Shown: positions 8,741-29,792 of the stretch, piece by piece | Layout of the letters: each line of letters begins with the position of its first letter | How positions within the stretch are numbered: the stretch's first letter is position 1 | NCBI GenBank assembly: GCA_015232365.1 | Contig: JADFZU010000030.1 | Span: forward strand, 1 to 32,979 | From: Magnetococcales bacterium | Lineage (GTDB): Bacteria; Pseudomonadota; Magnetococcia; Magnetococcales; JADFYX01 | Length of the DNA stretch: 32,979 bases | Reading direction: 5' to 3' | Notes under the pieces: model-generated | Told to the model about the DNA's origin: nothing | The model's input: the letters and a program-made list of their open reading frames with translations, nothing else | Database searches by the model: none | Translations under genes and position numbers: made by a program

Positions 8741-8920
8741 AGCTCACCACCAGCAACCGATATTTTGGAGGAAAAACAGGAGTGTTACTATTTGAACTAT
8801 CAACAAAATCTATTTAAAAAAAACATGGAATTTCGATGACTCTACCACTCTACATCTATTCATTACAATCATCTTATATCTTTATGTTTTTCAAACTGCT
8901 GCCCAATATAATTGCCTGTG

Positions 8921-9094
8921 TCAGTTACAGCCCTTTACTGGTGCGGTTTGAGACCCGTTTTGAACGGATTCTGTGGTTGAGACCATGCTTTTGTCATTTG
9001 TGGACAAAAGCTTAACATACTTGCCTTCAGGGGCATACCAAGGCTTATGCAGAAGCGTGGCGTGCAGGATATTCAATGCCCCATCCTGGTCCAT
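8921..9094 (-). pseudogene. possible remnant of a transposase-like gene
   Basis: A 57-codon minus-strand frame starts at ATG 9094. Its product begins MDQDGALNILHATLLHKPW. The D-x-D-x-A-x-N-I-L pattern is faintly like the C-terminal DRDxNAAxNIL of TnpB-type proteins, but two residues are missing and the frame upstream is closed by a stop. No ribosome-binding site is seen. It could equally be a chance frame. Confidence 0.2.
8987..9011. repeat. hairpin GCTTTTGTC / GACAAAAGC
   Basis: Perfect 9-bp inverted repeat with a 7-nt loop. No U-tract follows on either side, so a terminator is doubtful. It could be the end of an element or an operator. Confidence 0.5.
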
Positions 9095-9181
9095 ATTTTA
9101 AGACGCTTGATCATCACTGTCATTAGAGAAATCTGCAATATTGCTGTGATTTGACCTCCATACCTTTATGATTCTACTTGA

Positions 9182-9225
9182 GAGTTGTATATGTTTCGCA
9201 TAAGTCTGCTTTACTCATACAACTC
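9182..9225. promoter_or_regulatory. inverted repeat GAGTTGTAT / ATACAACTC upstream of the LuxR-type gene
   Basis: Two perfect 9-bp arms (9182-9190, 9217-9225) are separated by 26 nt and lie about 235 nt before the regulator gene. The arms are spaced like paired regulator half-sites. Autoregulation by the LuxR-type protein is possible but unproven. Confidence 0.3.
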
Positions 9226-9460
9226 AGTTCACACTACAAATATGAGTAACATCGGCAACTAGCTTTTCCAGATTAACTGTGTGAGAATGACTTGCTATTA
9301 TGGACAAAGCGTCACCCATTTTGGGTAGAGTAAGAATTTTTCGATTTTTTATATTTTTTAACGATCAAGTCAACTTGAGCCAAACAGCTCATCAATTTAG
9401 TGCAGTTTGTTTAATAACATAAAATAGGCTGCACCTTGGCCTGGAGAACAGAGGAAAGTC

Positions 9461-10705: not shown

Positions 10706-10865
10706 TAGTCATGGTTTAAAACCTCATATCCCAGATAGTTACTCCATGACCAGAAAAAGTTAACACTCAGTTTAGCTGCCATATTAAGGCTCTCTAAACC
10801 ATCGGGCTTTCTTTTTTCATGCATAAGGTTTAAATCCAATCTCTTTGGCCGATGGCTGTTTAGTT

Positions 10866-10892
10866 CCTGTCCAAAAATATATTTTGGACAGG
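10866..10892. terminator. 11-bp perfect inverted repeat, possible terminator after the LuxR-type gene
   Basis: The arms CCTGTCCAAAA and TTTTGGACAGG flank a 5-nt loop. TATGATTTTTTT follows on the plus strand, which is close to a rho-independent terminator though the T-run is offset by about five bases. It lies 160 nt past the LuxR stop. An operator or element end is the alternative. Confidence 0.45.
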
Positions 10893-10947
10893 TATGATTT
10901 TTTTATTTGAACATATTCATGATAGATTGACATGCATGTAACATGAA

Positions 10948-11082
10948 TTATGCCCGGAAAGCTATTCCATACTGCATCAGAACAAGACACTGATGAAAAT
11001 TGACCGGTGAGCGTACTTCATGTACGTGATTCGATCAATTTTAACCGGCAACACAGTGCTGATGTGGCTTAGGGCGGCATAA
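10948..11082. repeat. 135-nt imperfect palindrome (MITE-like element or structured RNA)
   Basis: Nested complementary arms occur in order: TTATGCC (10948-10954) with GGCATAA (11076-11082); AAGC with GCTT (11067-11070); CATCAG (10975-10980) with CTGATG (11059-11064); CACTG (10988-10992) with CAGTG (11054-11058); AAAATTGA (10996-11003) with TCAATTTT (11035-11042); CGTAC (11012-11016) with GTACG (11022-11026) around a 5-nt loop. Such ordered pairing over 135 nt is unlikely by chance. It could be a miniature inverted-repeat element or a stable RNA hairpin. It lies 64 nt before the FKBP start. Nothing else but the hairpin at 10866 is visible in the 441-nt gap 10706-11146. Confidence 0.6.
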
Positions 11083-11146
11083 CCAGGATTGTTAGGTGCA
11101 GCATGTTGTTTAAGCTCTATCTAGGCATGTGCAGGAGTGCTGCAAT

Positions 11147-13725: not shown

Positions 13726-15774
13726 TCATGGCTCTCTCACCAACCTAAAACCGGTATAATCAATACTGTATGATGGTAGATAGTTACGGCGATGGGCAAA
13801 ACTGATATTTTCTGGTCCACTATTCCAACAACCGCCCCGACTTCCTTTAAAGAACCCCTTGAGAGGACCGTTTGGCCTGTTGCGGGGAGAGTTTTGGTAG
13901 TAATTTTCATCGTACCAATCTGCAACCCACTCACAAGCATTACCCAACATATCAAAGAGACCAAATTTATTGCCACGGAACCTACCCACAGGAGCCGTTA
14001 CCTTGAATCTGTCTTCACAGTTGAAAGCCTGCCATGACCAACCAAATTCAGTTTTGGCTTCTGGGGTTAAAAAATTGCCATATTGACAAATGTTAGTCTC
14101 TGACTCACCCCAAGGAGTCTCATTTTTAGAGCCTGCCCTCGCCCCATACTCCCACTCAGCTTCTGTTGGCAGACGGTAGCTGCCACTGGAATTTTTTGAT
14201 AACCATTTAGCAAAGTTGTTTGCATCTTGCCAACTGACATAGACCACAGGCTGTTGTTCACCATTCAAGGTGTAGCCAGACCAGCTTTTACTATCGTGTT
14301 TGCTTTTAAACATCCGGTACTGTCTGTTTGTAACCTCATATTTACCAAGCCAAAAACCCTCATGGCATACCTCATGGCGAGGTTTTTGATCTGAATTAGA
14401 CAAATCACTACCCATAAAGTTGCAACCAGGATAAATCCAGACAAACTCCATACCGGTTTTTGGCTCTACCCAGACCGGGGCCGACTCTGGGCTGCGGCTC
14501 TGCTCCAATTTACGAGCTTCTGCAAGTCTGGACTTTACGCTTTTTATCGACTCCAACTCTGGACTCAACTCAGAAGCCATGCTCAAGAACTCCTCCACCT
14601 TTGTCCAGTCAGATTTTCTCAGCACCACCTCTGCCAACAGCACATACTTCTCAGCTATCTTGGCCATACCAGCCCTGGCCTGAACATTTCCTGGGTCCAG
14701 GGTTAGCACCTCTTGATATCTAGATAAATTATTCAACCACAGTTGACTGTTCATCTCTCCAGCCCCCTGCCCCTCTTGGATACCATCTAGCAGCTCTTTG
14801 ATTTTCAACTGCTTTATCTGCTCTTCTTCAATTTTTCTCGCCACAGCCTCTTGACGAAGTCGCTCATCTTCAATTTTTTTCAACTCTTCTGCTATCAGCC
14901 GTTTTTTCTCCTCACGTTCAAAAATTTCCACCTGACTCAAACACTCTCCCTCATATTTACTGGTATCAGCACCTTCAAGGATTAAATCTAGCTGAATTGT
15001 TTGACCGTGGGAGAGATCAAAATCGGTAGAAATTTTTGCACAGGGACCATAGGCTAAACTAATTTTATGTTTACCAGCTTTAAGCTGGTTTAGTATTGCC
15101 GGGGTTTTTTCCTTACGAGGTTGATCATCAATGCTTATTGACGCCCCTGCTGGCGTACTCAAGACCGATATTTTTCCACTACCGCTCTTTAGCACATAAC
15201 TACGTTTGGTAACCACCCCCTTCTCCACTCTAACCGCCTCTTTTTCCGGTGTGTAGTAACGTTTTTCAACAAACAGCCGGTGGAGACCAGCAGCCATTTG
15301 CTCTTCTAAATATGGGGTTATCCCTACAAGTTTACCATCTATGATGACGCTGGCTCCAGAGGGTATTGACTCAACCTTAAACTCACCGTAACCAAGAATA
15401 TTGGCAGGTTTTTGTTTAGCAGTTGTTTGACTGCTGCCCGTTTTTATATTTGTTTTTTTGGCGACAGGTTTTTGTTTAACAACAGAAACACGACGAACAA
15501 CCGTCGAGCTATTTCTATGTTTTTTTTCAGAATCAGGAACTTCAGTAAAGCTCCATACCAGCAGGCCGCTAATTATAAAGCCTACAATACCGGCAGTAAC
15601 CTGCACCCAAAGCTTTGCTGAATATCTGGCTGTTTTAAGTTTTATGGATTGAAAAAGAGGAGATTGTTCAACATTTTGCAACCATGTTTTAAACTTCAAC
15701 TGCTCAGCCGGTTGCGGCAGATAGCTACCTAACTTGCCAAGCAATTCTCTAAATTTTTGCCAACTCATAGGCAA
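13726..15774 (-). CDS. membrane-anchored PEGA and FGE-sulfatase-fold protein
   Basis: Residues 55-77 form one TM helix (LWVQVTAGIVGFIISGLLVW), placing the long C-terminal part in the periplasm. Two PEGA domains follow at about 131-197 (VESIPSGASVIIDGKLVGIT) and 198-268 (LSTPAGASISIDD). Next come a Lys/Glu-rich coiled coil (about 275-335), a TPR-like stretch, and a formylglycine-generating-enzyme fold (about 440-682: GMEFVWIYPGCNFMGS, SYRLPTEAEWEYGARAG, LFDMLGNACEWVADWY, TGFR). The C-terminal RGGCWNSG segment lacks the paired cysteines of active FGE, so a binding or scaffold role is more likely. The start is uncertain: TTG 15774 lies 7 nt after GGGGGA, and ATG 15768 lies 6 nt further. It follows the GGDEF-like gene by 39 nt. 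Confidence 0.8.
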   Translation of the reverse strand: MPMSWQKFRELLGKLGSYLPQPAEQLKFKTWLQNVEQSPLFQSIKLKTARYSAKLWVQVTAGIVGFIISGLLVWSFTEVPDSEKKHRNSSTVVRRVSVVKQKPVAKKTNIKTGSSQTTAKQKPANILGYGEFKVESIPSGASVIIDGKLVGITPYLEEQMAAGLHRLFVEKRYYTPEKEAVRVEKGVVTKRSYVLKSGSGKISVLSTPAGASISIDDQPRKEKTPAILNQLKAGKHKISLAYGPCAKISTDFDLSHGQTIQLDLILEGADTSKYEGECLSQVEIFEREEKKRLIAEELKKIEDERLRQEAVARKIEEEQIKQLKIKELLDGIQEGQGAGEMNSQLWLNNLSRYQEVLTLDPGNVQARAGMAKIAEKYVLLAEVVLRKSDWTKVEEFLSMASELSPELESIKSVKSRLAEARKLEQSRSPESAPVWVEPKTGMEFVWIYPGCNFMGSDLSNSDQKPRHEVCHEGFWLGKYEVTNRQYRMFKSKHDSKSWSGYTLNGEQQPVVYVSWQDANNFAKWLSKNSSGSYRLPTEAEWEYGARAGSKNETPWGESETNICQYGNFLTPEAKTEFGWSWQAFNCEDRFKVTAPVGRFRGNKFGLFDMLGNACEWVADWYDENYYQNSPRNRPNGPLKGFFKGSRGGCWNSGPENISFAHRRNYLPSYSIDYTGFRLVREP

Positions 15775-15813: not shown

Positions 15814-17457
15814 CTATTTAACAGCGATCATGGTATTACCACCACCACTAAGCTTAGCTGAATCTAGTGAGGCCTGAGCACCACGCAGCAGTGCCCTGGA
15901 TTTATTATATGCCGGATACATGGCAATCCCTGCCGAGATTGATTTAAAAGCGAGAAGGTCTGGATTCTCTTTTTGTAGTTTGTGCCACATCTCTCTGGTT
16001 TTATCTATAGCCACCATCGCCCCGTCAGCATCGGAATCAATCAACAAAACCCCAAACATACCTTCATCTATCCGGCCGATAAAATCGGAGTTGCGCAGTG
16101 ATTTCTTCATAACCTCGCTCAACCCCTTCAAGGCGGACTCAGAGACAGCAGTTTTGTTGCCACCAGATGAATCAAGCTCTAAAAGAGCGACACAAAAATT
16201 ATTTTTACTCCGCTGGCAGCGTATCAGCTCACCATCGATTTTCTCTAAAAAAGCCTCATGGTTTAGATGACCGCTAAAAGCATCGGTATTGGTGTTCAAT
16301 ATTTTTTTCTTGGAAATTTTAATAGCGTTTAAAACTGCCCGCACCAGCCGAACTTGTGAAGTTGGTAACGGTATAAAATTGGTAATATCGAGATTTCTCT
16401 CATAGGTAAGACCAACCTCGACAGGATCGCTGGAGAGAAACATGATTGGTGTTTGAGCAAAACCAAGCTCTTGCCTTATAACTCTTTGCAACTCAAAGCC
16501 GGAACACATGGACATACGCAGGTCGATAAGCAGAACATCAGGGCGAAAACGACGCATTGGCGGCAACATCTCCATGGGTTTGGCAACAATTGCAACCCTG
16601 GCACCAATATTATGGAAAACCATGGCAATATGTTCGGCCAGATATCGTGACTCTCCAACCACCATGATTTTAAGATCGCCAGTTTTTTTGGTCTCTAAAA
16701 CAGAGTTGAGAGCCATGACTATACGCTCTGGACCAGCAGCTTTTGGCAGAAAAAAACTAGCTCCACTCCTTAAGGTATCAAACCTTTTTTGCATATCATC
16801 AACATCAGAGATCATTATAATAGGTGGTGGAACCTGACCCGATTGACTAACCATGGTCTCAAAAGGAATTTTACTCTTCTGAGCCATCTCATTGTTGACT
16901 ATGATTGTCGCTGGCTCCATGTTTGAAAGAATATCAGCCAGACCATCAATAGATGTGAGATGCTTTACCCGCATCTCATTCTGTCTTAGTTTTTTGGTAA
17001 CACCAGCAACAAACTCGGCATCCTCTTCAACAATGACTATAATCAACTCATCAAGGCGGTTTTTTGATCTCCAGCCATAATCTTCAGCCTTGAAACCATC
17101 TTGATCTCTGCTTATAGCGGCCCGGCACGCCTGGCCTATCTGCTCCAGAAAGCTGCTGATTTTTTCAATTTGCAAAGTTTGATCACTGCCGCCACCCCAT
17201 AACGGATAAGAGAGTATCTTCTCAATTTCCAGGGCCAGATCTTTAACTTTTGCTACCGAAAAAATCCCACTTCTATCACCTAGATTCTGCACCAACCGTT
17301 TAAAGGTTTTTTGCAGATCATAATCCTCAGGGGATTCGACAATCTTCTTCCATATTTCATCAATTGTATTAAAATTGGTAATGAGTTTATCGTTAAAATC
17401 GTTAGTAGCTTTTTCAAGCAACGTAACTTTTGTCGACGGAGTGTTTGAATCGCTCAT
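15814..17457 (-). CDS. degenerate REC-REC-GGDEF protein with HPt-like N-terminus
   Basis: The 547 residues form four parts. Residues 1-125 are helical and HPt-like, but the phospho-histidine position seems absent (TFKRLVQNLGDRSGIFS). A first receiver domain (about 138-255) keeps the acidic pair EED (144-146) and the conserved Lys in FLPK, but has Asn188/189 where the phospho-acceptor Asp should be. A second receiver (262-378) keeps Asp312 (DVLLIDLRM) but lacks the conserved Lys (FIPLP). A GGDEF-fold domain (390-547) has its signature changed to RIDEGMF (462-468), so cyclase activity is unlikely. It may still bind c-di-GMP or act as a scaffold. AAGGA lies just before ATG 17457. Six nt separate it from the HlyD gene. 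Confidence 0.85.
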   Translation of the reverse strand: MSDSNTPSTKVTLLEKATNDFNDKLITNFNTIDEIWKKIVESPEDYDLQKTFKRLVQNLGDRSGIFSVAKVKDLALEIEKILSYPLWGGGSDQTLQIEKISSFLEQIGQACRAAISRDQDGFKAEDYGWRSKNRLDELIIVIVEEDAEFVAGVTKKLRQNEMRVKHLTSIDGLADILSNMEPATIIVNNEMAQKSKIPFETMVSQSGQVPPPIIMISDVDDMQKRFDTLRSGASFFLPKAAGPERIVMALNSVLETKKTGDLKIMVVGESRYLAEHIAMVFHNIGARVAIVAKPMEMLPPMRRFRPDVLLIDLRMSMCSGFELQRVIRQELGFAQTPIMFLSSDPVEVGLTYERNLDITNFIPLPTSQVRLVRAVLNAIKISKKKILNTNTDAFSGHLNHEAFLEKIDGELIRCQRSKNNFCVALLELDSSGGNKTAVSESALKGLSEVMKKSLRNSDFIGRIDEGMFGVLLIDSDADGAMVAIDKTREMWHKLQKENPDLLAFKSISAGIAMYPAYNKSRALLRGAQASLDSAKLSGGGNTMIAVK

Positions 17458-17463
17458 TTCCTT

Positions 17464-18768
17464 CTATCGCTCCTGTAAAGCAGTTCCTGCTGACCCAAGT
17501 AAGGGTTCCAGAAAGAAGTTAAGCACAGTTCTGTCTCCGGTTATAATACTGCATATTACCTGCATGCCGGGAACAAGGGGATATTTAGCCCCCTGCTGTT
17601 CAAAATAGTACTGCTTTGTTGTTACCTGAATTTTATAAAAAGACAGTCCATCTTTATTAATGTAGGTATCAGGGCTGATTGAACTTACAGAACCTTCAAT
17701 AATTCCCAGCCTTGCAGCATCGGCTGATGCCAGCCTGATAGTTACCTTCTGTCCAACCTGGACAAACCCAATATCTTGGGTTTGCAACTCCGCTTCAATA
17801 ATTAACTGATCTTTTCCTGGAACTAGTTCGATCACTGTGCCGCCAGGAGGAACCACGCCACCAACAGTTACCACATGCAGGGTTTTAATCACCCCATCAA
17901 CCGGAGCCAAAAGCACAGCACGTTTAAAGCTATCTTCAAATTTAAGCAGTTGCTGGGAGAGTTTCTCCTCCTCACTCACCGTCTCAATCAGCTCTTTTTG
18001 TGCCTCCTCCTGAAAAGCATTCCAAATTGTTTTCTCTTTGGCTTCTGCCTCTTGAATCGAAGATTTAATTCTCCGTAACGCCTCTTGATCTTCAGATATC
18101 TGCCCTTGCAAGCGAGCTTCGTCTATAAGCAGAGTGATATGCTGCATCCGGTTGGCAAGATCCTTCTTGAGAAGCTTTTTACTGATTTTAATCTGTTCAC
18201 GAAAAAGATTTGCAATGGTACGGTTCGATTTCAGTCTGGCTAAGGTTCCAGCTATTTCGTGCTTTCGCTGTAAAACAACCTCTTTTTGTGCCTGCACCTG
18301 ACTATCACGTCGCTTCAGTCTGGAGATAAAAAGATCAGTACTCCGCCTCACCAAATTGGGAAACTGCTCTTGCAACTCTTCAGGAAAAACCAAAGAGGTA
18401 GCACCGGACAGCTCAGCCTTTAGACGTATAGTTTTGATTTTAGCATTTATCCGCCTGATTTTCAGATCCACCACATCAGACTCAGCACCAACTGACTCCA
18501 GAGCAATCAGAGGTTGACCAGCAACCACCCTATCACCCTCTTTAACCATAATTTTACTGACAATACCACCCTCCAGATGTTGAATCTCTTTTATCTGGCT
18601 GGCCGGAATCACCTCCCCGGTGGCACTGCTGACAATATCCAGACGACCTATAGCAGACCAAGCCAGAAGTGCCAGAAAACCAAAGCATATGACAAACAAA
18701 AAAATATGATTGCCAGAGGTAAGCATGACACTGTCAGGTAAAGATTGTTGGGGATTTGTATCATTCAT
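17464..18768 (-). CDS. HlyD-family type I secretion periplasmic adaptor
   Basis: This is the membrane-fusion protein linking the inner-membrane ABC exporter to TolC. It has 434 residues from ATG 18768; an in-frame TTG at 18777 is possible, and neither has a clear ribosome-binding site. An N-terminal TM helix at about 20-40 (HIFLFVICFGFLALLAW) is followed by the family motif GEVIPASQIKEIQHLEGGIV and a lipoyl half (VSKIMVKEGDRVVAGQPLI). A long coiled coil follows (about 75-270). The second lipoyl/beta-barrel half includes LLAPVDGVIKTLHV and VQVGQKVTIRLAS. Length and order match PrtE/LapC-type adaptors. It lies between the TolC-like gene and the GGDEF-like gene, and is a core part of the secretion unit. 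Confidence 0.93.
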   Translation of the reverse strand: MNDTNPQQSLPDSVMLTSGNHIFLFVICFGFLALLAWSAIGRLDIVSSATGEVIPASQIKEIQHLEGGIVSKIMVKEGDRVVAGQPLIALESVGAESDVVDLKIRRINAKIKTIRLKAELSGATSLVFPEELQEQFPNLVRRSTDLFISRLKRRDSQVQAQKEVVLQRKHEIAGTLARLKSNRTIANLFREQIKISKKLLKKDLANRMQHITLLIDEARLQGQISEDQEALRRIKSSIQEAEAKEKTIWNAFQEEAQKELIETVSEEEKLSQQLLKFEDSFKRAVLLAPVDGVIKTLHVVTVGGVVPPGGTVIELVPGKDQLIIEAELQTQDIGFVQVGQKVTIRLASADAARLGIIEGSVSSISPDTYINKDGLSFYKIQVTTKQYYFEQQGAKYPLVPGMQVICSIITGDRTVLNFFLEPLLGSAGTALQER

Positions 18769-18824
18769 AACGGTCAATTATTTACAAACATTAATGGGTG
18801 AACAGCTAAAGCCTGCTGATTATC

Positions 18825-20738
18825 TTAAAGTGGAGCATCATATGAAGCTCTTGCCCCTGCCGGCGTACCGTATGATGCTCTTGCATCCGCTGGCATACCG
18901 TATGATGCTCTTACACCTGCCGGCGTACCGTATGATGCTCTCTCGTCAGATAGCGGCTCTTTATCCGGCAGATCATAAACAGGAGGCAGGCTCTCAATAC
19001 TACCTATCTCTTCTGGCTCTATCTCATCAGGTGGAACTTCATATGGTGGTTTTTCATACTCAGAATCAAAATCCTCATATGTGGGGGCTTGACCATCCTG
19101 TTCTGGTGAGTCGTCAACCGGTTTCTGCCCCCCAGAAATTGGTTCTGTATCAGGAACCAGATACTCCTCTTGCATCTTCCGCTCCTCTTCAGAGAGCATG
19201 GAGTCAGGATCTTGAGTATCTATTAACGGATCACTATCAGAGCTCTCTTCTACAACTTCAGGTGTAGCTGTTTTCGCCTTAGACAGTGCCTTATCAGTGA
19301 TTTTTTGCAAACTCGCGACAACCCTGCTTGACGGCTCTAAAGAGAGATCTCGATGAAAATATGGTAGCGATTCCTCTTTGATACTGCCCTTTTTCAGATC
19401 TACCTTGGATAATATACCAATTTTCACATCACCCATAATTTTAAGCAGAGATAGGGCATTAATTAAAATATCTATCCTTGCCGAGCTTGCATCACTCTGG
19501 GCGGTTAACAGAGCAGTCTCTGCGGTTAAAACCTGAATCTGGGAACTCATCCCCAGGTTACTCTGGGAGTATGATATCTCCAGAGAAGCAGCAGCAAGGT
19601 CAGCCTGCCGCCTGATCGAGGTCCAGACCATAGTTGAGGTGATAAGCTTCTGCCAAGCGTTTCCAACCTCTTCAACCATATCATCTCTTAGGGACTCCAT
19701 GGTTATGGTCAGGGAGTCTTTATCCTTGATAGACGCCCTGTACTCATTGAGTTCTGTCATCCCCAAACTGATAGGAAAGGTCAACTCAAGCTTACCAAGT
19801 GTCTCCTTTTTATTGCCAGCAGTGCCACCAACATTCTGTTTCCATTTCTGCTCAAGAACAGCCTCAATTTTTGGGAAGAATGACCGACTACGCAGAGCAT
19901 CACTCTCATTTTGAGCCGACTCTACATCAACCAAAGCCAGCTTAATATCACGGTTATTGTTCTCAACTCTGGTAATTGCCTCATGGAGAGTTAGTGGAAT
20001 ATGGCTCAAAATGGCAAAATCAATATCTTCAAAGCTGTTAACATCAACTGGAGTTGACGCAAAAATCTTTTTAAAGTTATTACTCTGGGTGACCATAGCC
20101 AATTCAGAGTTAAACAGCTTGGTTTGAGATTCGGCTAGCTGTTTTTTTGCCTCGATCAGATCTGATGTGAGACCAGCTCCACCCTCTATTAGAATCTCCT
20201 CCAGGCCGGTTTTACGCCTGATATTAGCTTCAGATAGTTTTGCATAGTCCAAAACTATAGCTGCTCGCTTAACCTCTAAAAATGCCGTAATACCTTCAAC
20301 TAGACTCTCCTGCATCTGCTGATCCATCAACAGTGACTTCCCATCCACCCCCTGCTCGCCTTTTCTGATGTCAGATAGTGTTGCACCAAAATCCCAAACG
20401 GTCTGGGTAAGAGAGAGGTCTACCTCATGAAAATCTAAATTGCTATCAGATGAAGTACCTTCACCATCTATCTGCTCAAAACCTCTGTTTATCGTCACAT
20501 CAATAACTGGAAATAGTTTACCCTTTTCCATTTTAAGGCGATCTTTTTCTGCAGCAAAGTCTACCTTTGTCCCCTTAATCTTTTTATTGTTTTTAAGAAG
20601 GTCAACCAACAGAGGCTCCAATCTCTGCACACTCGCAAGAAGTGGTGACGGAACCAGCAACAGCATGGAGATGGAAATGCATCCCAGATAACAGAACAGA
20701 GCCGGTTTTGTCCTGATTAATGTTGCGAGCACCCCCAT
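18825..20738 (-). CDS. TolC-family outer-membrane channel with an acidic, repetitive C-terminal tail
   Basis: A signal peptide covers about 1-36 (LFCYLGCISISMLLLVPSPL then LA). Residues 37-460 form the TolC fold, with two helical-hairpin halves: KDRLKMEKGKLFPVIDVTIN and DALRSRSFFPKIEAVLEQKW are the equivalent strands of the two halves. Family members usually end near 450-480 residues. This one continues to 637 with a Pro/Glu/Asp-rich, probably disordered tail (about 490-598), finishing in a 10-residue tandem repeat (600-637). The ATG directly follows the stop codon of the channel-fusion gene, so translation is probably coupled. It is the best candidate for the outer-membrane pore of the type I system. 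The tail should face the periplasm if TolC topology is kept. Confidence 0.9.
   Translation of the reverse strand: MGVLATLIRTKPALFCYLGCISISMLLLVPSPLLASVQRLEPLLVDLLKNNKKIKGTKVDFAAEKDRLKMEKGKLFPVIDVTINRGFEQIDGEGTSSDSNLDFHEVDLSLTQTVWDFGATLSDIRKGEQGVDGKSLLMDQQMQESLVEGITAFLEVKRAAIVLDYAKLSEANIRRKTGLEEILIEGGAGLTSDLIEAKKQLAESQTKLFNSELAMVTQSNNFKKIFASTPVDVNSFEDIDFAILSHIPLTLHEAITRVENNNRDIKLALVDVESAQNESDALRSRSFFPKIEAVLEQKWKQNVGGTAGNKKETLGKLELTFPISLGMTELNEYRASIKDKDSLTITMESLRDDMVEEVGNAWQKLITSTMVWTSIRRQADLAAASLEISYSQSNLGMSSQIQVLTAETALLTAQSDASSARIDILINALSLLKIMGDVKIGILSKVDLKKGSIKEESLPYFHRDLSLEPSSRVVASLQKITDKALSKAKTATPEVVEESSDSDPLIDTQDPDSMLSEEERKMQEEYLVPDTEPISGGQKPVDDSPEQDGQAPTYEDFDSEYEKPPYEVPPDEIEPEEIGSIESLPPVYDLPDKEPLSDERASYGTPAGVRASYGMPADARASYGTPAGARASYDAPL
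18828..18941 (-). repeat. 30-bp in-frame tandem repeat at the 3' end of the TolC-like gene
   Basis: Nearly four units encode RASYGTPAGV, RASYGMPADA, RASYGTPAGA and RASYDAPL. The DNA units are highly similar, which points to recent slippage. Copy-number change would alter only the tail length. Confidence 0.85.
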
Positions 20739-23700
20739 TTAATCAACCAACTCCTCTAACAGGGTCTCGTTCCATTCATCTTCTTTAGCCTCTTTAAAGC
20801 CTTGTTCTTGGATATCATCATCAAAAGCCTCCCCTTTAGAGCCGACATCAAGCTGGATGTTCCTCTCGGCAAAATAACGAAAAACCTCTACCCACAAAGC
20901 TCTGGTAATACTGCCGTCTTCATAATCTTCCAGCCAGTACCAGATCTCATATTTTGCGACCCACTGCCTGAAAAAGTTTTCTATCCCTTTGTTGACACAC
21001 ATACATGGTTTTACTTCCGAAGCCCGGGGAACATTATCACAGATCTCGCCTAGATAACCGATGATATCTTCTGGATCATAAGATGTTGAGACATATATGG
21101 GGATCTTGACTTTTGTCGCACCGCCAACAGTATAGTTTGTTACTGCTGCATCAGATGCCATACCGTTTGGAACGCTGATAATCTCTCCGCAGAGTGTTTT
21201 AAGGCGCAGAGTCCTCCATGTGATATCGATAACCTGAGCATCGTCCAGTTCACCCACTCGAATCCAATCACCAACAGAAAATGGCCGCTCAATATTGACA
21301 ACAATACCGGAGAAGACATTGGCAATGTTGGACTGCACAGCCAGACCGATGATCATGGTAAGCAGACCACCTGTAGCAAGAAGGCTGGTTAGTGCCTGGC
21401 CAAAGACAAATGCGATAATCCCCAAAATGGCAAACAGATAGAAAAGTACCGAGACAAATTTACGGATGATATTTGGTACAATCTGCTCAGTACGTCGCTC
21501 AAGCGGTTTCCAGACAAACCGTTCAATAGCAATGTTTATCAATACCGGAGGCAGAAACCACCAGAGAATATCATAGACCATTACAATACTATCGATGGCA
21601 CTTAAAGAGAGGTTGTTTACAGCAAAATCCAAAACAACATTTCCCATTGCCAACAGAAATAGCGGCCAGGAAAAAGCGTAGAGACTGAAGGATGTAAGCG
21701 ACCAAAAAAAAGTACGGTTCTTTTTATCAATACCAACTCCAAAAAAGATACCGATAGCAGCAAAAATGCCCAAATATATAAAATAATCTGAAGGGACGAT
21801 ATCTCTTAGAGAGAATGAATCGCTGGAGATCATCACCCCGAAATCTATTCTTGAAAAGGCCGGGTCTTCGGTACCAAAACCTACATATTGTGGACGACCT
21901 AAACTGCTCTCAATAGTCGTCTCTGAAGAGTACCACGCTTTATCAACATCCCAGCCAAGTGAAGGATCAAGTACCCTTGACTCCTGAATAGTCTCCGATA
22001 GGGGAACCCCGCTACCAAGACGGATACCCAAAATATCAACCACCAGGATAATGTTGTTTCTTGAAAGGTTTTTATGGCGGAAAGATAGCCCTAGTACGTG
22101 ACTACCGTAAGGTCTTATAGCGTCGGAAAAATTAAGCCTGAAGGTTCCTTTTACTTTGTATAGTTTAAAATTAAGATCTTTTTTTGTCGTTGATTCAACA
22201 GGCTTGCCAAGCTCTACGTCACCAACTGCGTTGATAATCTGTAGATCAGCCGGATCAAAGACCCCCTGGTAGCGAAACCAGATAGAAAACTCCAGATCTA
22301 CCGTATTGGTCTCCAGGTTGATATTTGATACTTCTTTCAGGGTGACACCGGAGTAGACGACATTGGTTTTGTACATAAACCTGTCATTTACATACAACAT
22401 CCGCCCCTGTTTAATCTCATTGATGAAGTTGATATTGCCTTTAGCGGTAATCGGCATCAACTGGGTAAGGTCAGAGACAAGCTGGTTTCCATTAAATTTT
22501 CCAAGGAGGATATTTTTTTGGATCTCACCATATTCATTAAAATATAGATCACCGTTAACCCCCTTGAAAGAGCTGTCAAATGAGACCAGAGAACGCATAT
22601 AGGTGTGAATTTGGCGGCGGGCCTTCTCTATTTCTGATAGAGACTCATCCTCAACAACAGTTTCAACTTCAATTTTTTTATCTTCAACATAAGCAGGTTT
22701 TTTGCCGAGAAAAGTCAAAAGGCTAGAGATCAGCCCAGGCTCTTTACGGCTTTGGGCTTTCAGCTCTTCTGTGCTTTGCACCAGAGCGTTAAGAGAGAGA
22801 AAAACAGCATCATATGCGTTGGCCCCAACCCAGTCAGATTGACCACGATATCTCTCTTGGTAGGCGTTATTATAGTTTTGCCCCTGCTGTCCGGCGGTAT
22901 CCCATAAAAGAGAAGAGGTTAACAGAATATCGTTGCTATCATTTGCCGACATATCCCCGCTCAGCTCTTTTAGTTTACGGCTAAAATCGTGGCTGGCCAG
23001 GGAGTCTGGGCCAACCAAACGGTTTTTAAGCTTTGCTCCTCGGGCAAAATGAACAAAATGGGCTGCATCAACGGCATTCATGGCAAGAAAAACAATACCG
23101 GTATCACGCTTCTCTTTAAGTGTTTCGACTACCTCGGAAAAAACCGCCTGCCGTCCATCGCCAGAATCAAAAGCCCATTTAAAACGGACCCTGGTTCCAA
23201 ACCGTTTGTAGGTCTCTTCAAAACCACGAGCCATCTCCTGACCAACGAAGGAGTTGTCATGGACTATGGTGGCAATGTTCTCTTTAAGAACATTTTTAGT
23301 ATAGTTGGCAAGAAATCGAGCCTGCTGCCAACCATTTAAACCGGTCTTGAACACCCAGTTTTTACCCTCAACCATCTCCCTGCCACCAGCAGCAAAGGTG
23401 ATAAAGGGTATTTGGCTGTTTTCATAAATTGGACTGGCGGCATTGGCCCCCTCTTCGGTAGAGTGGCCAACAACAGCAACATAATCACCACTCTCAGCAA
23501 TCTCATTGGCAATGGCAATTGCCTCATCCGGGTCGCCAGATTCATCATAGACGATTAACTCCAACTCTTGACCACGACCACCGAGAGCCATATTTAAATT
23601 GGATATAGCCAGCTCTGCACCACGACGCATGGATTGGCCGGTTACGGAGTGAGTTCCGCTAATAGGGGCAACCAGAGCTACTGACAGTACATCCTTTGCA

Positions 23701-23792
23701 GCTAAAAAATATTTCTTGGCAACATAGGAGCTAACTCCACCTAAAATGAAGATCACTGCAATAACTAAAATAAGCTGCCTTTTTTTCGACAT
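20739..23792 (-). CDS. substrate-binding protein / pLGIC-like domain / MscS channel fusion
   Basis: This 1017-residue membrane protein starts with a signal-anchor helix (6-28). A periplasmic binding domain of the branched-chain amino-acid (Peripla_BP_6) type follows at about 35-455: LSVALVAPISGTHSVTGQSM, YVAVVGHSTEEGANAASPIY, GIVFLAMNAVDAAHFV. A beta-rich module at about 472-600 contains VDLEFSIWFRYQG, DLQIINAV, YKVKGTFRLNF and IRPYGSHVLGLSF, resembling the extracellular domain of pentameric ligand-gated channels. TM helices follow at about 670-690, 700-720, 738-757 and 778-800. The MscS core comes last: pore helix near 805-833 (LLATGGLLTMIIGLAVQSNI) and beta domain (PFSVGDWIRVGELDDAQVID, SVPNG). 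It is coupled to the TolC-like gene. A ligand-gated MscS-type channel is inferred. Confidence 0.85.
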   Translation of the reverse strand: MSKKRQLILVIAVIFILGGVSSYVAKKYFLAAKDVLSVALVAPISGTHSVTGQSMRRGAELAISNLNMALGGRGQELELIVYDESGDPDEAIAIANEIAESGDYVAVVGHSTEEGANAASPIYENSQIPFITFAAGGREMVEGKNWVFKTGLNGWQQARFLANYTKNVLKENIATIVHDNSFVGQEMARGFEETYKRFGTRVRFKWAFDSGDGRQAVFSEVVETLKEKRDTGIVFLAMNAVDAAHFVHFARGAKLKNRLVGPDSLASHDFSRKLKELSGDMSANDSNDILLTSSLLWDTAGQQGQNYNNAYQERYRGQSDWVGANAYDAVFLSLNALVQSTEELKAQSRKEPGLISSLLTFLGKKPAYVEDKKIEVETVVEDESLSEIEKARRQIHTYMRSLVSFDSSFKGVNGDLYFNEYGEIQKNILLGKFNGNQLVSDLTQLMPITAKGNINFINEIKQGRMLYVNDRFMYKTNVVYSGVTLKEVSNINLETNTVDLEFSIWFRYQGVFDPADLQIINAVGDVELGKPVESTTKKDLNFKLYKVKGTFRLNFSDAIRPYGSHVLGLSFRHKNLSRNNIILVVDILGIRLGSGVPLSETIQESRVLDPSLGWDVDKAWYSSETTIESSLGRPQYVGFGTEDPAFSRIDFGVMISSDSFSLRDIVPSDYFIYLGIFAAIGIFFGVGIDKKNRTFFWSLTSFSLYAFSWPLFLLAMGNVVLDFAVNNLSLSAIDSIVMVYDILWWFLPPVLINIAIERFVWKPLERRTEQIVPNIIRKFVSVLFYLFAILGIIAFVFGQALTSLLATGGLLTMIIGLAVQSNIANVFSGIVVNIERPFSVGDWIRVGELDDAQVIDITWRTLRLKTLCGEIISVPNGMASDAAVTNYTVGGATKVKIPIYVSTSYDPEDIIGYLGEICDNVPRASEVKPCMCVNKGIENFFRQWVAKYEIWYWLEDYEDGSITRALWVEVFRYFAERNIQLDVGSKGEAFDDDIQEQGFKEAKEDEWNETLLEELVD

Positions 23793-23794
23793 CT

Positions 23795-24826
23795 TTAAAC
23801 CACCGGACTATTTTGTGAACGCATAGGTATTGAAATTGGCATCGGGGTATCTGGCAATAGGGCAATGCTATTAACCTCTGCACTCTCAAAGCCAAGTCGA
23901 ATCCAATGCACAATACATGCCTTATCAAGATTATAGACAATCAATCCTGAAGGCTGCAGATCGTCACTAAAATCTTCGCTGGGTGGTTTAATACCAGCAA
24001 TAGAGGTTGAGAGGGTTATGAAAGCGTAGTTTTCAAAGAACGCCAAGGCAGTTGGATAACCAGGAGTCCTAAACACGGATGAGAATTCGCCACTCTTAAT
24101 ATCAACATAACCAAACTCTGAAGTGCCAGAGTTTAGCAGCCAGACGCTATTGCGATAGAGTACCGGCGAGCATGGCAGGGTAAGTCCACTGCTTACGACT
24201 CTGTCATCGGTTATATCTATCACCTTTCCAGCTTTATTAAAATTTGACTCCCAACCCAATCTTGTACTGGTATCGCTAAAACTAGTTACATAGCGAACCT
24301 CATTGCCATCAAGAGCCATACCACTGAGATGACAGCAATCATTTGGTTCATCTTTGGCTACAAAAATTGGCTGCCATATTTTTTTAAATGGTGAGCTAAA
24401 ATCAACTGTAGCCAGAGCGTTATCTTTAGCGGCAACATATACAGGCCGCCCTTCCGGGTCTAGCTCTATAGCTTCAATACCACGGGGACCAGTTGCAATG
24501 GTCATTATAGGAGCAAACCTGGAGCCTTTTTCTGTTGGAATTTTTAAAAAACCATGGAGATGATTGTTGCTTGAAAACCATAATTTTCGCCCGTCACTAT
24601 AGAGGGCAGAAGCCCCTGGAACTGGAACCTTGGTGACAGAGACCGCACCTTGATTACCAGCAATACCAACGCAGTAGATTTTGCCACGAAGCTTCTCAGT
24701 AAATGCCAAACTTATTTTGTTGCGTAACAGCCATCGGTCAAAGCCGTCTGAAATAACAATTTCAGGATCTTTAGGTTCAGAGAACACCTCTTCAGCTTCC
24801 ATATTGTTTGGCACACAAAATTGCAT
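23795..24826 (-). CDS. TIGR03032/DUF4915-like beta-propeller protein
   Basis: The 343 residues from ATG 24826 form repeated beta-strand blades without a signal peptide. The family's typical signposts are visible: CCHLSGMALDGNEVRYVTSF, the TRLGWESN turn, GLTLPCSPVLYRNSVWLLNS, GTSEFGYVDIKSGEFSSV, TALAFFENYAFITLSTS, and a closing VHWIRLGFE, VNSIALLPD. TIGR03032 proteins have no established reaction. GAGG sits 7 nt before ATG 24826 and decides against a GTG six nt upstream. It lies 2 nt before the channel-fusion gene and 33 nt after the ABC transporter gene, so it belongs to the secretion operon. A cytosolic chaperone or sensor of the adhesin is one possibility, by context only. Confidence 0.75.
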   Translation of the reverse strand: MQFCVPNNMEAEEVFSEPKDPEIVISDGFDRWLLRNKISLAFTEKLRGKIYCVGIAGNQGAVSVTKVPVPGASALYSDGRKLWFSSNNHLHGFLKIPTEKGSRFAPIMTIATGPRGIEAIELDPEGRPVYVAAKDNALATVDFSSPFKKIWQPIFVAKDEPNDCCHLSGMALDGNEVRYVTSFSDTSTRLGWESNFNKAGKVIDITDDRVVSSGLTLPCSPVLYRNSVWLLNSGTSEFGYVDIKSGEFSSVFRTPGYPTALAFFENYAFITLSTSIAGIKPPSEDFSDDLQPSGLIVYNLDKACIVHWIRLGFESAEVNSIALLPDTPMPISIPMRSQNSPVV

Positions 24827-24859
24827 TGACACACCTCAAAATAAGACCAATGGTGCAGA

Positions 24860-26521
24860 TTAATCAGCTTTTAATACTAAGCGTGGAACAGGTTTCACAT
24901 TAAGGTCGAGAATCTGCTGGGCATTTTTGGCTATTGCTGTCTCATGGGAGCAGATTACCATGGTATGTTTCTGCTCTAACATCTCATTCATCACCTGGAC
25001 AACCGCCCTACTTCCAACTTGATCCATACCACTTAGCGGTTCATCAAAAACAATCAGGCGGCCGTTGGTAGTCAAAGCTCTAGCCATTGCCAATCGCCTG
25101 CGAATTCCCACCGAGAGTCTTGCTCCACCATTTTGAATCTTGGTATCCAATCCATCTGGAAGCTGATCTAAAAATGTCTTCAACCCAGCCCTATGCATAC
25201 AGTTTTTCAACCCCTCATCATCCATTTCAGGATTTAAGGTTGTCAGGTTATCCCTGATGGTTCCGTCTAAAAAAGTCGGCTCTTGAGGTAGGTAGACAAG
25301 CTGCTTTCGCCACCAGTCAGCACTAACCTGGGATAGAATCACCCCGTCAACAAAAATCTCTCCCCGTGTTGGCTCAACCAGCCAGGCGATCATTTTTGCT
25401 ATTGTGCTTTTTCCCGAACCATTACCGCCAGTGACAATTATAGAGTTACCAGGTTTAAGGGTAAAAGAGAGAGACTCAAAAATAGGTGCTGTAGCTTCCG
25501 GGTAGGAAAAGGATACGTCACGAAACTCCAACTGACCTTTGTAAGTAGCTAGCTCAGCACCATCACGGCGTTCACTTGGCAGCCCAACAACCTTGTCAAT
25601 ATCTGCCTTGGACTCTCTGCTACGCATTAAAACTGCAACCAGTGAGGAAAACCTGCTGACAATACTCAAAGCTCGTCCAGCAAGTATATTGACGCCAATT
25701 ATCGTCCCAATTGGCATCAGGCCGTCTACTGCCTGAGCCGCTCCAAAACCTATAACCAGAATTACCAAACTAAATGATGAAAATTGAATCAGGGATTGGT
25801 TCAGGTTTTGTGACTGCCCCAACTGAATACGAAAACTCTGTGCAATATTGTTTAATTTTTGCCACTGCTGCATAAGCAGGCTGTGACCGTTAAAAGCCCG
25901 TATTGTATCAATATCAGTCAAAACAGAACGGCTTATAACAGCAACTTGTGCGTTGGCGTTGTTCATCTCACGGGTTGCGATACCGCTACGCCAGCCACCA
26001 AACACCCCAAGAGAGAACGATAGAATCAACATTCCAGTAACAATAAGCCCTAATTTGGTGTTGATCATATAGACCGCGCCCAGATAAAAAAGAGCAAACG
26101 GAAGATCAACTATTGTTAAAATGTTGTTTGGTGAAAAGGCAGAAGATAACATCTCAAGACCGCTAAAGGCTTTACGCCCCTCGCCTTGGGGAAGCTGGTC
26201 CAAAACACTGTATTTTGCTGTAAGGCACGATTTGAATAGAGAGTCACCAACTGTTTGGTCTTTTGGAACCTGGAGTGCAACACAGACACGGTATCTTAAA
26301 CGGCGGAGAAAAAACTCAAACAGCCCAGCGATAACAGCACCAATTGTCAATGTTGCCAGGGTTGAGTCCACACCACTATTGACATAACGGTTAAGAACCT
26401 GCATCACATAGAGTGAAGAAGCCAGCCCAAGAATGTTGACCAGTGCTGACGATAGCAAAATTTCTGTTATTAGCAGTTTTTTACTTGGAGGTGTGCTTTC
26501 TGTAGAGTCTGAACTTTTCAA
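24860..26521 (-). CDS. type I secretion ABC transporter (permease-ATPase)
   Basis: This inner-membrane exporter drives substrate export through HlyD and TolC. It has 553 residues: a six-helix TM domain (about 20-300) and an ATPase domain (about 330-553). Walker A is GGNGSGKST (365-373), the Q-loop LPQEP (411-415), Walker B LIVFDEP with Asp493/Glu494, and the switch His526 in CSHE. The ABC signature is LSVGI in place of LSGGQ. No N-terminal C39 or C39-like domain is present, so it resembles PrtD/HasD size classes rather than HlyB/LapB. The start is TTG at 26521 with AGG about 9 nt upstream; the next ATG falls inside the first TM helix. It follows the SPOR lipoprotein gene by 118 nt, a stretch with no visible feature. 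Confidence 0.92.
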   Translation of the reverse strand: MKSSDSTESTPPSKKLLITEILLSSALVNILGLASSLYVMQVLNRYVNSGVDSTLATLTIGAVIAGLFEFFLRRLRYRVCVALQVPKDQTVGDSLFKSCLTAKYSVLDQLPQGEGRKAFSGLEMLSSAFSPNNILTIVDLPFALFYLGAVYMINTKLGLIVTGMLILSFSLGVFGGWRSGIATREMNNANAQVAVISRSVLTDIDTIRAFNGHSLLMQQWQKLNNIAQSFRIQLGQSQNLNQSLIQFSSFSLVILVIGFGAAQAVDGLMPIGTIIGVNILAGRALSIVSRFSSLVAVLMRSRESKADIDKVVGLPSERRDGAELATYKGQLEFRDVSFSYPEATAPIFESLSFTLKPGNSIIVTGGNGSGKSTIAKMIAWLVEPTRGEIFVDGVILSQVSADWWRKQLVYLPQEPTFLDGTIRDNLTTLNPEMDDEGLKNCMHRAGLKTFLDQLPDGLDTKIQNGGARLSVGIRRRLAMARALTTNGRLIVFDEPLSGMDQVGSRAVVQVMNEMLEQKHTMVICSHETAIAKNAQQILDLNVKPVPRLVLKAD

Positions 26522-26639: not shown

Positions 26640-29600
26640 CTATTCAGCAACTACACTTTTTAGCAGTCGCTTGGGAATAATGAATGAGGGTCTATGCTCA
26701 ATTTTTTGGTAGTTTTTACTAACCTCTTTTGCCCGGTCAATGCTCTGGAAAAGACCTATTAAAATCTTCTTGAGTTTTATACCTTTTTTATCTATTGACG
26801 GCCAAACAACAACCTTATACCCCCTCTCAGCAAGGTGGGAAACCAACTCATCAACCGCCAACTCATCGTATAGTGCAGCTACCTGTACTGCATACCTCCA
26901 ACTCTTAGAGTTAGGTGCAGAAGGTGAAGGTAGATCAACTTTTTCTACATCAATAATTTGGGTAGGAACAACCCCTTGCTCCATGGCTTTTTCAATATCA
27001 GACGACATATTCTCTTCACCCATTAGAATACTAACAGGCACAACTACTGAACTTTCATGCTCATGCTCACTATAGTGTCTTCGCACTTTTACTGCCTGCT
27101 CTACATCTTTGAAAACACCAAGGAGAATCCGGCGAAACCTTCGACCATTTTCATCTTCTGCTTCCCAAAAAAATGGCGAATAACCAACTCTACTTAGATG
27201 ATTAACCATCTTTTCAGCAACTTGGTCTTCATAAACTGCCGAAACCTGTACTGCATAATGCCAAGGCATTAATTCAGACAGATCAACTCTGGAACTGTTT
27301 ATCTGTTTATAGGTGAGGTTCGATTGAGGCAACGGTTTTAGATTGGGTTTTCCAACTCTCCTTACCATCGTCAACTTTTCTGCCTTGGCTTTTTCTCTTG
27401 CAAGCTTTTCTGCTTTAGCCTTTTCGGCTCTCTCTCTAGCTAGCTTTTCTGCCTTGGCTTTTTCAGCTCTCTCTTTAGCTAGCTTTGCTGCCTTGGCTTT
27501 TTCTCTAGCAAGCTTTTCTACTTTAGCCTTTTCGGCTCTCTCTTTAGCCAACTTAGCTGCCTTGGCTTTTTCAGCTTTTACTCTAGCTTCCTCGGCGGCA
27601 TTGGCTGCTTGAACAAATTTAGTCGGCTTTTTTTCATGAACACTATTTTTTGCTTTTTTAAAATCAATTACTGAACTAGGAGGGGCTAGCATACCACCTT
27701 CAATCTGATGTTTTGAGACAATGAATGCCGGCTTACTCTCCTGTTTACTATAAAACTCCTGAACTTTTTTAGCCTTAACAAAGCTTTTGTAGAGACCGAT
27801 CCAGACCCGTTGCATTTTTTTGCCACTCTTATCTTTAGACTCCCAAACAAAAGTTGAGTAGCCCTTCTTATGAAGCTGCTCTAACAACTCAACTATCAAG
27901 CCTTTTTCGTAAACAGCAGCAACTTGAACTGCATAACGCCAATCAAGCTTGGCAAAATCATTTTGCTTTTCAACCACCTCCTTAGTGGATTTTGGTTTTT
28001 CAATCTTTTTTGCTGCAACAACCTGTTTAGTTTTGGCTTTATAAGGTTTTGCAACAGTTTTTGCTATAACTTTCGGAGAAATATTAGCTATTTTAACCCC
28101 TGCTGCTTTGGTAATGGCTGGAGAATCAAGCAGCTCTTCTGGAGGAATAGATGTTAGTGGCGAACCAGCCTCTTTTTTCCATCTTCTCTCCACCTCCTGT
28201 CTGGCATTAGCTTCATAAGCAGCCTGTTGCTCCTCAACAGCAGGAAGGTTCAAAGCCGTCAACACTGCCAAGGTCTGCACCTCACTGTGCCAACGAAAAT
28301 TACGCAGCTCAATATTTTTTGCCAGGGTCTTGACGGAACGGTTTTGAATTTTTCTAAACGGAAGAAGATCAAAACCGATGGATGACTGCAAACGGCCTAC
28401 TGAGTTGTGAAAACGGCCATAATCTTCATAACGCTCAACCTTGTTGAACAGCGACTTGGAAGCAGTGTCTACATATGCCAGATGGTCAAATGCCCACTGT
28501 ATGCCCTGGTTACTAACAAAACTCTTGTACGGCTCGATTTTTTCTGGATATTCTCTTCTTTTTTTTATAGCTTTTCTCGCCTCAATATACTCACTATAGG
28601 CTATGTTGACTTGAGCAATAATAGCCATGGAAATATCAATAGGCATCGGTGTGGCCTGCCCCGTTTTTTTTCTCTCTAGGTTGAAGAGCTTTCCTGCCAT
28701 ATTGACACCAGCTTTCTCCCATTTTTTACTGTTCAAAGCTTGACTCTCTCCACCACTGCCAGGAAGAGCAAGGTTAAAGTCGTTCATGGCTTTTTCAAGA
28801 GATTCTCTGGTTTCAACTATATTGACAGAGTTAACCGCCTGCTCAGTCTGAAGTTCTGGCCTTAACAGTATCGCCAACTGCTCCATCTGCGGCAGAGAGA
28901 GCGGCAAGGTTGAATCCACCATCTGTTCTTGACTGGAATCCAGCAGTTTTAAAGGCAGATCCGGGTTATGTTTTATTAAAATTGCAAACTCACTTTGGGC
29001 AAACTGAAACTCAGACTTCAACTGCTCCAAACGACGAATAACATCAAGCATGGTCAACTGATATTGAAGTATTTCTGTGGGAAACCTTCTACCTTTTTTT
29101 TCAATTGCACGAGCCTTTTTCATCGATTCATTTGCCATCTCAAGGATCAACTCAAGCTCTGGCAAGCTCTGTTGGGCAGCAACAACCTTCCAATATCCAG
29201 TTCTCGCCTCCTGCATTAAATTTTCGATCATTTTCCGTCGCAACTCGTCAAACACCTGGTCTTCGTTAGGTAGTTGTTGCAGATAAAAATGGTTTATCCC
29301 TGAATCCAGAAGGTTCCAAACTGTAGCTAAATGTGACTTTTGAGAACCGGTATCATATGACTGATACAGCTCTTCAGCTATCACATTTGCTGGAAGGTAA
29401 CTGCCTGTTATATCAATTTTAGGCGGAAATTTTTTCTGGTCAAACACAGATGATGGTGCTGGGTTGCGAAGAGCAGAACCAACCCTACTCTGCTTTGCTG
29501 CTCTCTGCCTGGCTTTATAGCTATACAGTTTCTCAATTCGTGCCGCCAAATTGTATTTAATAGCTCTGGCTATTACCATCTCAATGGAGAGCATGTTGCC

Positions 29601-29792
29601 AGATTGTTTTTGATTAACGTAATCTTGCTGTTTTTTTTCTAATTTTTTAGGTTTGATTATGAGATTATCATCTGGTGCTAAAGTTATTGATTTATCCTGG
29701 TTGGCACAACCACCACCAACCAACGCAACCACAAAGAAGATAGCAGGCACAAAGAAGCTCACGAAAATGTTGGTTTTACCAGCCATTCTCAT
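26640..29792 (-). CDS. lipoprotein with TolC-like domain, Lys/Ala-rich stalk and three SPOR domains
   Basis: The first 31 residues form a signal sequence ending VGGGC, a probable lipobox. Residues about 45-540 are helical and TolC-like (SIEMVIARAIKYNLAARIEK, QYQLTMLDVIRRLEQLKSEF, LRPELQTEQAV). Three SPOR domains lie at about 614-690, 842-917 and 962-1047. Each opens with YAVQV(A/S)A(V/L)Y and contains a GYS/GYK...KKxxxVxIGLxxS-like block. Between SPOR 1 and 2 is a highly charged helix of 13-residue units (731-807). SPOR domains bind peptidoglycan stripped of stem peptides. The protein could fix a secretion complex to the wall or to division sites. ATG 29792 has GGGA 7 nt upstream. It is the first gene of the minus-strand train, divergent from the adhesin. 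Confidence 0.85.
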   Translation of the reverse strand: MRMAGKTNIFVSFFVPAIFFVVALVGGGCANQDKSITLAPDDNLIIKPKKLEKKQQDYVNQKQSGNMLSIEMVIARAIKYNLAARIEKLYSYKARQRAAKQSRVGSALRNPAPSSVFDQKKFPPKIDITGSYLPANVIAEELYQSYDTGSQKSHLATVWNLLDSGINHFYLQQLPNEDQVFDELRRKMIENLMQEARTGYWKVVAAQQSLPELELILEMANESMKKARAIEKKGRRFPTEILQYQLTMLDVIRRLEQLKSEFQFAQSEFAILIKHNPDLPLKLLDSSQEQMVDSTLPLSLPQMEQLAILLRPELQTEQAVNSVNIVETRESLEKAMNDFNLALPGSGGESQALNSKKWEKAGVNMAGKLFNLERKKTGQATPMPIDISMAIIAQVNIAYSEYIEARKAIKKRREYPEKIEPYKSFVSNQGIQWAFDHLAYVDTASKSLFNKVERYEDYGRFHNSVGRLQSSIGFDLLPFRKIQNRSVKTLAKNIELRNFRWHSEVQTLAVLTALNLPAVEEQQAAYEANARQEVERRWKKEAGSPLTSIPPEELLDSPAITKAAGVKIANISPKVIAKTVAKPYKAKTKQVVAAKKIEKPKSTKEVVEKQNDFAKLDWRYAVQVAAVYEKGLIVELLEQLHKKGYSTFVWESKDKSGKKMQRVWIGLYKSFVKAKKVQEFYSKQESKPAFIVSKHQIEGGMLAPPSSVIDFKKAKNSVHEKKPTKFVQAANAAEEARVKAEKAKAAKLAKERAEKAKVEKLAREKAKAAKLAKERAEKAKAEKLARERAEKAKAEKLAREKAKAEKLTMVRRVGKPNLKPLPQSNLTYKQINSSRVDLSELMPWHYAVQVSAVYEDQVAEKMVNHLSRVGYSPFFWEAEDENGRRFRRILLGVFKDVEQAVKVRRHYSEHEHESSVVVPVSILMGEENMSSDIEKAMEQGVVPTQIIDVEKVDLPSPSAPNSKSWRYAVQVAALYDELAVDELVSHLAERGYKVVVWPSIDKKGIKLKKILIGLFQSIDRAKEVSKNYQKIEHRPSFIIPKRLLKSVVAE
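27373..27590 (-). repeat. 39-bp-type coding repeat (AEKAKAEKLARER units)
   Basis: The DNA encodes about six units of 13 or 10 residues, AEKAKxEKLARER or AKAAKLAKER, inside the SPOR lipoprotein. The composition predicts one long charged helix. Length variation between strains would be expected. Confidence 0.8.

Follow-up and report, generated by a model that had tools for sequence, protein, structure and literature searches.

The window analysed here, i.e. the whole stretch of 32,979 nucleotides of contig JADFZU010000030.1 from a Magnetococcales bacterium, carries on its minus strand a gene encoding a protein of 1017 aa (20739..23792). For this protein, the first-pass annotation had claimed three parts in one chain: a Peripla_BP_6-type N-terminus, a middle domain called by eye as resembling the extracellular domain of pentameric ligand-gated ion channels (pLGICs), and an MscS core. 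It had also suggested an amino-acid ligand and a tie to secretion or adhesion. The locus therefore raises the question of whether such a chimera is real, where its middle domain comes from and what a channel of this kind would do beside the genes that surround it.

Domain architecture of the channel protein

The reading frame runs from ATG to TAA without interruption and is present as a single copy in the source genome, whose assembly has 103 contigs and is 83% complete. A fusion of two genes by an assembly error, which the first-pass annotation had named as an outcome that would undo its reading, is ruled out by the full-length single ORFs found in many independent genomes. Many of these homologues lie within genomes of the same order, and intact ones also come from isolates (Azospirillum, Skermanella and Desulfamplus magnetovallimortis) and from large plasmid replicons.

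Pfam placed Peripla_BP_6 at residues 37-341 (E 1.5e-29) and MS_channel_2nd at residues 823-888 (E 6.9e-15); the sole other weak match was DUF5389 at residues 694-787 (E 0.08), and residues 345-680 gave no Pfam match at E ≤ 10. In a phmmer search of PDB sequences, LIVBP was the match for the N-terminus and YnaI/MscS that for residues 684-916. The two outer parts of the initial claim are thus confirmed by both searches. In the AlphaFold2 (AF2) model of the full-length protein (pLDDT 83.4), a membrane anchor helix (residues 3-30; 23703..23786), also visible in the hydropathy, is followed by a two-lobe, LivJ-like periplasmic binding protein domain of type I (SBP; residues 34-447; 22452..23693; Foldseek TMt 0.90 to 4gnr) and by the extracellular domain (ECD; residues 456-660; 21813..22427). 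Then come five YnaI/MscS-type membrane helices (residues 668-834; 21291..21791), also delimited by phmmer to YnaI and by conservation and including the pore helix (801-834), and finally the MscS beta domain with the cytoplasmic C-terminal domain (residues 835-985; 20838..21290), all these coordinates being on the minus strand. The beta domain and the pore helix of the MscS superfamily are both present (Pfam, phmmer, AF2). No Neur_chan_memb match was found in the window protein with Pfam or in the PDB phmmer search, an MscS domain standing in place of the pLGIC pore of four membrane helices.

The middle domain and its relatives

Residues 440-693, modelled with AlphaFold2 from 48 homologues (pLDDT 79.7), were compared with the PDB using Foldseek. 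The ECDs of AChBP and nAChR alpha9 made up all top 50 matches (E ~1e-9, probability 1.00), with ~206 aligned columns, 10% identity and a TM-score of ~0.6 on the target for this single-chain model. At the sequence level, the 48 members gave no match to Pfam, nor to PDB sequences with hmmsearch, and hhalign, run directly against five plain bacterial pLGICs, gave no significant result, its lone short match being in register at strands 1-2. An HMM of the middle domain detected a second class of proteins in the same order, namely SBP-ECD proteins (~650-775 aa; hereafter SBP-pLGICs) whose Pro-loop reads PFD and whose membrane helices are of the pLGIC type; the best of them matches Neur_chan_memb (2e-4) and Neur_chan_LBD (7e-3) in Pfam, weakly and under the curated cut-offs. 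The middle domain is joined by hhalign to the ECDs of these SBP-pLGICs (99.1%, E 1.6e-18), which are in turn joined to ordinary bacterial pLGICs (98%, E 3e-13). In addition, BLASTP aligned residues 37-660 of the window protein with the SBP-pLGIC L195 (22% identity, E 1e-35), over both the SBP and the ECD and up to 8 residues short of the first membrane helix (TM1, residue 668). Outside this order, the SBP-pLGIC L208 has an ECD nearer still to the MscS type, yet it retains YPFDHQ and aligns with a further sequence, L189, throughout the membrane part. The homology to pLGICs is therefore drawn from a two-step chain through SBP-pLGIC intermediates, the direct comparison alone being insufficient.

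The middle domain is thus a pLGIC-type extracellular domain, by its fold and by this chain of sequences. A generic beta sandwich placed between SBP and pore, and like an ECD only by convergence, would agree with the missing Pfam and PDB sequence matches and with the non-significant direct hhalign, but it is very improbable and largely refuted: the profile chain is significant across the whole domain, the BLASTP alignment with an SBP-pLGIC runs end to end, L208 is intermediate, the ECD occupies the same pre-membrane position and the top fold matches are pLGIC ECDs without exception. The call made by eye was right, although the domain extends over ~456-660 rather than 472-600. Of the checks proposed with it, the structure prediction of the monomer bears it out, and the profile comparison does so by way of the SBP-pLGICs, while Pfam and direct hhalign with plain pLGICs gave nothing significant. 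The strings quoted at the time (VDLEFSIWFRYQG, YKVKGTFRLNF and IRPYGSHVLGLSF) were all found, within ~498-571, and the Cys-loop had been placed correctly, as RPYGSH falls exactly at the Pro/Cys-loop position in the alignments (residues 553-566; 22095..22136, minus strand).

The Pro-loop motif PFD couples the ECD to the pore in pLGICs. This pLGIC motif is absent from the window protein, which has YG instead, a replacement conserved in the alignment (of 47 sequences, 40 have the Y and 44 the G). Conservation reaches 90% or more in 14 of the 34 columns of the pore helix, in 45 of the 205 of the ECD and in 24 of the 313 of the SBP; no segment is more conserved than the pore helix, and within the periplasmic half none more than the ECD. 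To judge by these alignments, a conserved ECD with a variable SBP is the pattern expected of a conserved transducer that serves a variable sensor. The amino-acid ligand is not supported: at the positions of the LIVBP/LBP amino-acid contacts, which we take to be S79, T102, Y150 and E226, the window protein has E113, G136, V183 and D263, and the family is variable there, so that the ligand may differ between members.

In maximum-likelihood trees of the ECD, rooted on plain pLGICs with a root made less certain by long outgroup branches, the MscS-type sequences fall into a single clade (100/99, and 99/98 once rows were added) nested among SBP-pLGICs, and L208 is the nearest pLGIC-type sequence (97/78). 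In the tree of the SBP, proteins of the MscS type and SBP-pLGICs group together (100/100), apart from free transport SBPs. The simplest reading is that the pLGIC membrane part of a PBP-I-pLGIC was apparently replaced once by a YnaI-type MscS module, and that the Pro-loop PFD apparently became YG alongside this pore swap. Fusions of PBP-I and pLGIC (ART-LGIC) were reported in 2004 (Tasneem et al., PMC549065), in a text that makes no mention of MscS. The window protein shares with them the order of a type I binding protein followed by a Cys-loop-type ECD, both domains being homologous in sequence, but they have the pLGIC pore of four membrane helices and PFD where the window protein has an MscS pore and YG. 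Magnetococcales also encode short pLGIC-like proteins lacking the SBP (L183, L184, L186, L187, L188 and L192:4415-5620), several of which show neither a significant Pfam match nor a PFD motif; the one in L192 adjoins an SBP-pLGIC.

GTDB genomes were scanned with the middle-domain alignment, a search biased towards the SBP-ECD-MscS architecture since conserved motifs were required; it gave 80 further loci with the order SBP, middle domain, MscS, which answers the proposed survey of the domain combination. They come from Magnetococcales, Azospirillum and other Rhodospirillales, Acetobacteraceae, Rhizobiaceae, Methylococcaceae, Gallionellaceae, Sphaerotilus and Desulfamplus, plus one record titled Helicobacter cetorum (L107, a MAG), whose species label looks doubtful. 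In all 80, the middle domain is followed by MscS-type membrane helices; the SBP is at least partly visible in 79, the exception lying at a contig end, and the two loci without the MscS domain itself are likewise cut by contig ends. When 399 genomes were drawn evenly from the phylum, almost every match came from the home order, so the family is patchy outside it. Two paralogues bear an extra C-terminal cNMP-binding domain (SBP-ECD-MscS-cNMP; L034:13855-17268 and L043:2106-5537), and the L034 paralogue is separated from the orthologue of the window gene by a dCache-adenylate/guanylate cyclase gene (8894-11122). A divergent SBP-ECD-MscS protein (L207:6371-9211), from a single-contig genome of 4.6 Mb, has as neighbours an ABC_sub_bind protein and a Na/sulfate symporter with a cNMP domain, not type I secretion genes.

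Secretion and adhesin genes around the channel

Five genes next to the channel in the window lie on the same minus strand. A TIGR03032/DUF4915 protein gene (23795..24832) ends 2 bases before the channel gene and is preceded by that of a type I secretion-type ABC transporter (24860..26521; TIGR03375 E 2.5e-104, under the curated cut-off of the family; Pfam ABC_membrane/ABC_tran). On the other side, the gene for a TolC-type outer membrane partner (18825..20738) starts directly after the channel stop codon, followed by those of an HlyD-type adaptor (17464..18777; TIGR01843 E 2.9e-114, above the cut-off) and of a double receiver-GGDEF protein (15814..17457), which probably belongs to the same operon and is kept in the sister genome L034. 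A 1050-aa protein with OEP (TolC-like) and two SPOR domains (26640-29792) adjoins the ABC gene and is predicted to be a second outer-membrane channel, with peptidoglycan-binding domains. Farther away are a protein with PEGA and formylglycine-generating-enzyme-type domains (13726-15774), with a homologue in the L034 cluster, and a MASE10-HAMP-adenylate/guanylate cyclase gene (3560-5017), ~15 kb from the channel.

The ABC, HlyD and TolC genes of type I secretion (T1SS trio) are present in 50 of the 80 loci, and in 34 of the 44 with flanks of at least 7 kb on both sides. Outside the Azospirillum-type group, the trio occurs in 16 of 26 such long-flanked loci, in at least four gene orders. From HlyD counts in 48 Magnetococcales genomes (245 T1SS HlyD genes, ~5 per genome), a T1SS HlyD gene would be expected by chance in ~3% of 20-kb windows, a background for Magnetococcales only, to be set against related loci that are not independent. 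In comparison, none of 7 SBP-pLGIC loci has the trio, and in the two tested, an MCP-type signalling domain was found among the neighbours instead of secretion genes.

ORFs of at least 1000 aa adjoin the channel in 18 loci, and most of the large adjoining ORFs tested contain cadherin, bacterial Ig, laminin-G, NIDO or FG-GAP domains. Among loci without T1SS, one has a giant of the two-partner-secretion type (L130) and two have ShlB-type transporters (L097, L149), while L099 and L100 have neither T1SS nor a giant protein adjoining. The large neighbour in L107 was rejected as an adhesin, being a PKS, and no Big_9 adhesin match was found in the source genome at its 83% completeness. In L098 (13423-16722) and similar Azospirillum loci, a gene related to IcmF (type VI secretion type) lies downstream of the channel, and a cluster of ~1126 aa recurs in 18 loci. 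The proposed tie to secretion or adhesion is thus strong. Whether T1SS always adjoins had been raised as well: it usually does among long-flanked loci, but not always, other export of giant adhesins occurring too. Since T1SS or other exporters stand beside the giants, the link is to large surface proteins, whatever the export route.

A proposed signal-controlled channel for adhesin export

We consider it reasonably likely that the protein is an inner-membrane channel of swapped pore, gated by a periplasmic signal and acting on the adhesin encoded next to it. The periplasmic half of a PBP-I-fused pLGIC (SBP and ECD) would sit on a YnaI-type MscS pore. The SBP would close on a periplasmic small molecule and its movement would pass to the pLGIC-type ECDs which, via the short pre-TM1 link, would bias the pore towards opening or closing, alone or with membrane tension. 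Ions would flow or the membrane depolarise as a result, and this would tune how the large surface adhesin is exported, retained or released. Ring assembly, ligand gating and the effect on secretion are the parts that we infer.

This mechanism best explains what was computed, i.e. the domain identities, the homology of SBP and ECD with those of SBP-pLGICs, the single origin and the gene neighbourhood. It draws on the AChBP/nAChR fold, the sequence chain, the pLGIC membrane parts in relatives and the nested clade; on an SBP shared with SBP-pLGICs and not with free SBPs, in constant order across 80 loci; and on the contrast in T1SS trios between the two types of loci, the adjoining giant adhesins and the unequal conservation of ECD and SBP. 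The loss of the coupling PFD counts against it, as do loci like L099 and L100 and the missing Big_9 match. Subunit number is a further difficulty: MscS channels assemble from seven subunits and pLGICs from five, and the ECDs may thus fail to form a ring of the pLGIC kind.

The protein could instead be an osmotic valve gated by tension like YnaI, with SBP and ECD merely aiding assembly or anchoring near the secretion machine and no ligand gating. The intact and highly conserved MscS core and pore helix, the lost coupling motif and the variable ligand positions of the SBP speak for such a valve; we nevertheless hold it unlikely, because SBP and ECD are kept together wherever the gene start is intact, the ECD is strongly conserved, as mere decoration would hardly require, and the paralogues with an added cytoplasmic cNMP domain suggest control by signals. 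We judge it quite unlikely that the protein serves the adhesin export complex as a subunit, structural or regulatory, whose periplasmic part would sense or hold the adhesin or HlyD/TolC, conduction being secondary: the tight operon with ABC, HlyD and TolC genes and the adjoining adhesins would suit such a role, but the channel also lies beside two-partner-secretion proteins, whose export relies on other machinery, so that a specific T1SS contact is not needed, and the segment most conserved is the pore helix.

Compared with YnaI and the MscS superfamily, the signal-gated channel that we favour has similar membrane helices, pore helix and beta domain, to which SBP and pLGIC ECD are added. We know of no described MscS subfamily with both. 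MscS channels with cNMP domains are known as bacterial cyclic-nucleotide-gated channels (bCNG, cited in PMC4560390). They likewise join a ligand domain to an MscS pore, as do the two cNMP paralogues here at their C-terminus, but the sensor of the window protein is periplasmic and no cNMP domain is present in it. SiiAB of the Salmonella SPI-4 T1SS (SiiE) is an inner-membrane proton channel of the Mot/Exb/Tol family, encoded with the T1SS of a giant adhesin and thought to affect its retention or release (review PMC12607715). A conserved gene link to T1SS and giant adhesin is common to both, a likeness of role that may be drawn by analogy, without sequence kinship: the membrane part of the window protein matches MscS only in Pfam, not Mot/Exb/Tol. 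In the open-access literature, no paper was found that joins MscS with a pLGIC ECD or an SBP, or that ties such a protein to adhesin export.

We therefore regard the protein as probably a signal-controlled channel that serves surface attachment and is newly recognised here. More tentatively, it may be a natural receptor across superfamilies and a ligand-gated class of its own, in which Cys-loop-type ECDs at the MscS stoichiometry of seven respond to a periplasmic signal by gating a mechanosensitive-type pore, and so control the secretion of giant adhesins. Artificial pLGIC chimeras have been used to ask how the ECD drives the pore; here is apparently a natural one, with a pore from an unrelated superfamily and a different number of subunits, which allows one to ask whether a Cys-loop-type ECD works when the ring is not pentameric and its coupling loop is missing. 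Adhesin export loci of environmental proteobacteria, many Azospirillum species among them, would then regularly include a signal-gated ion channel.
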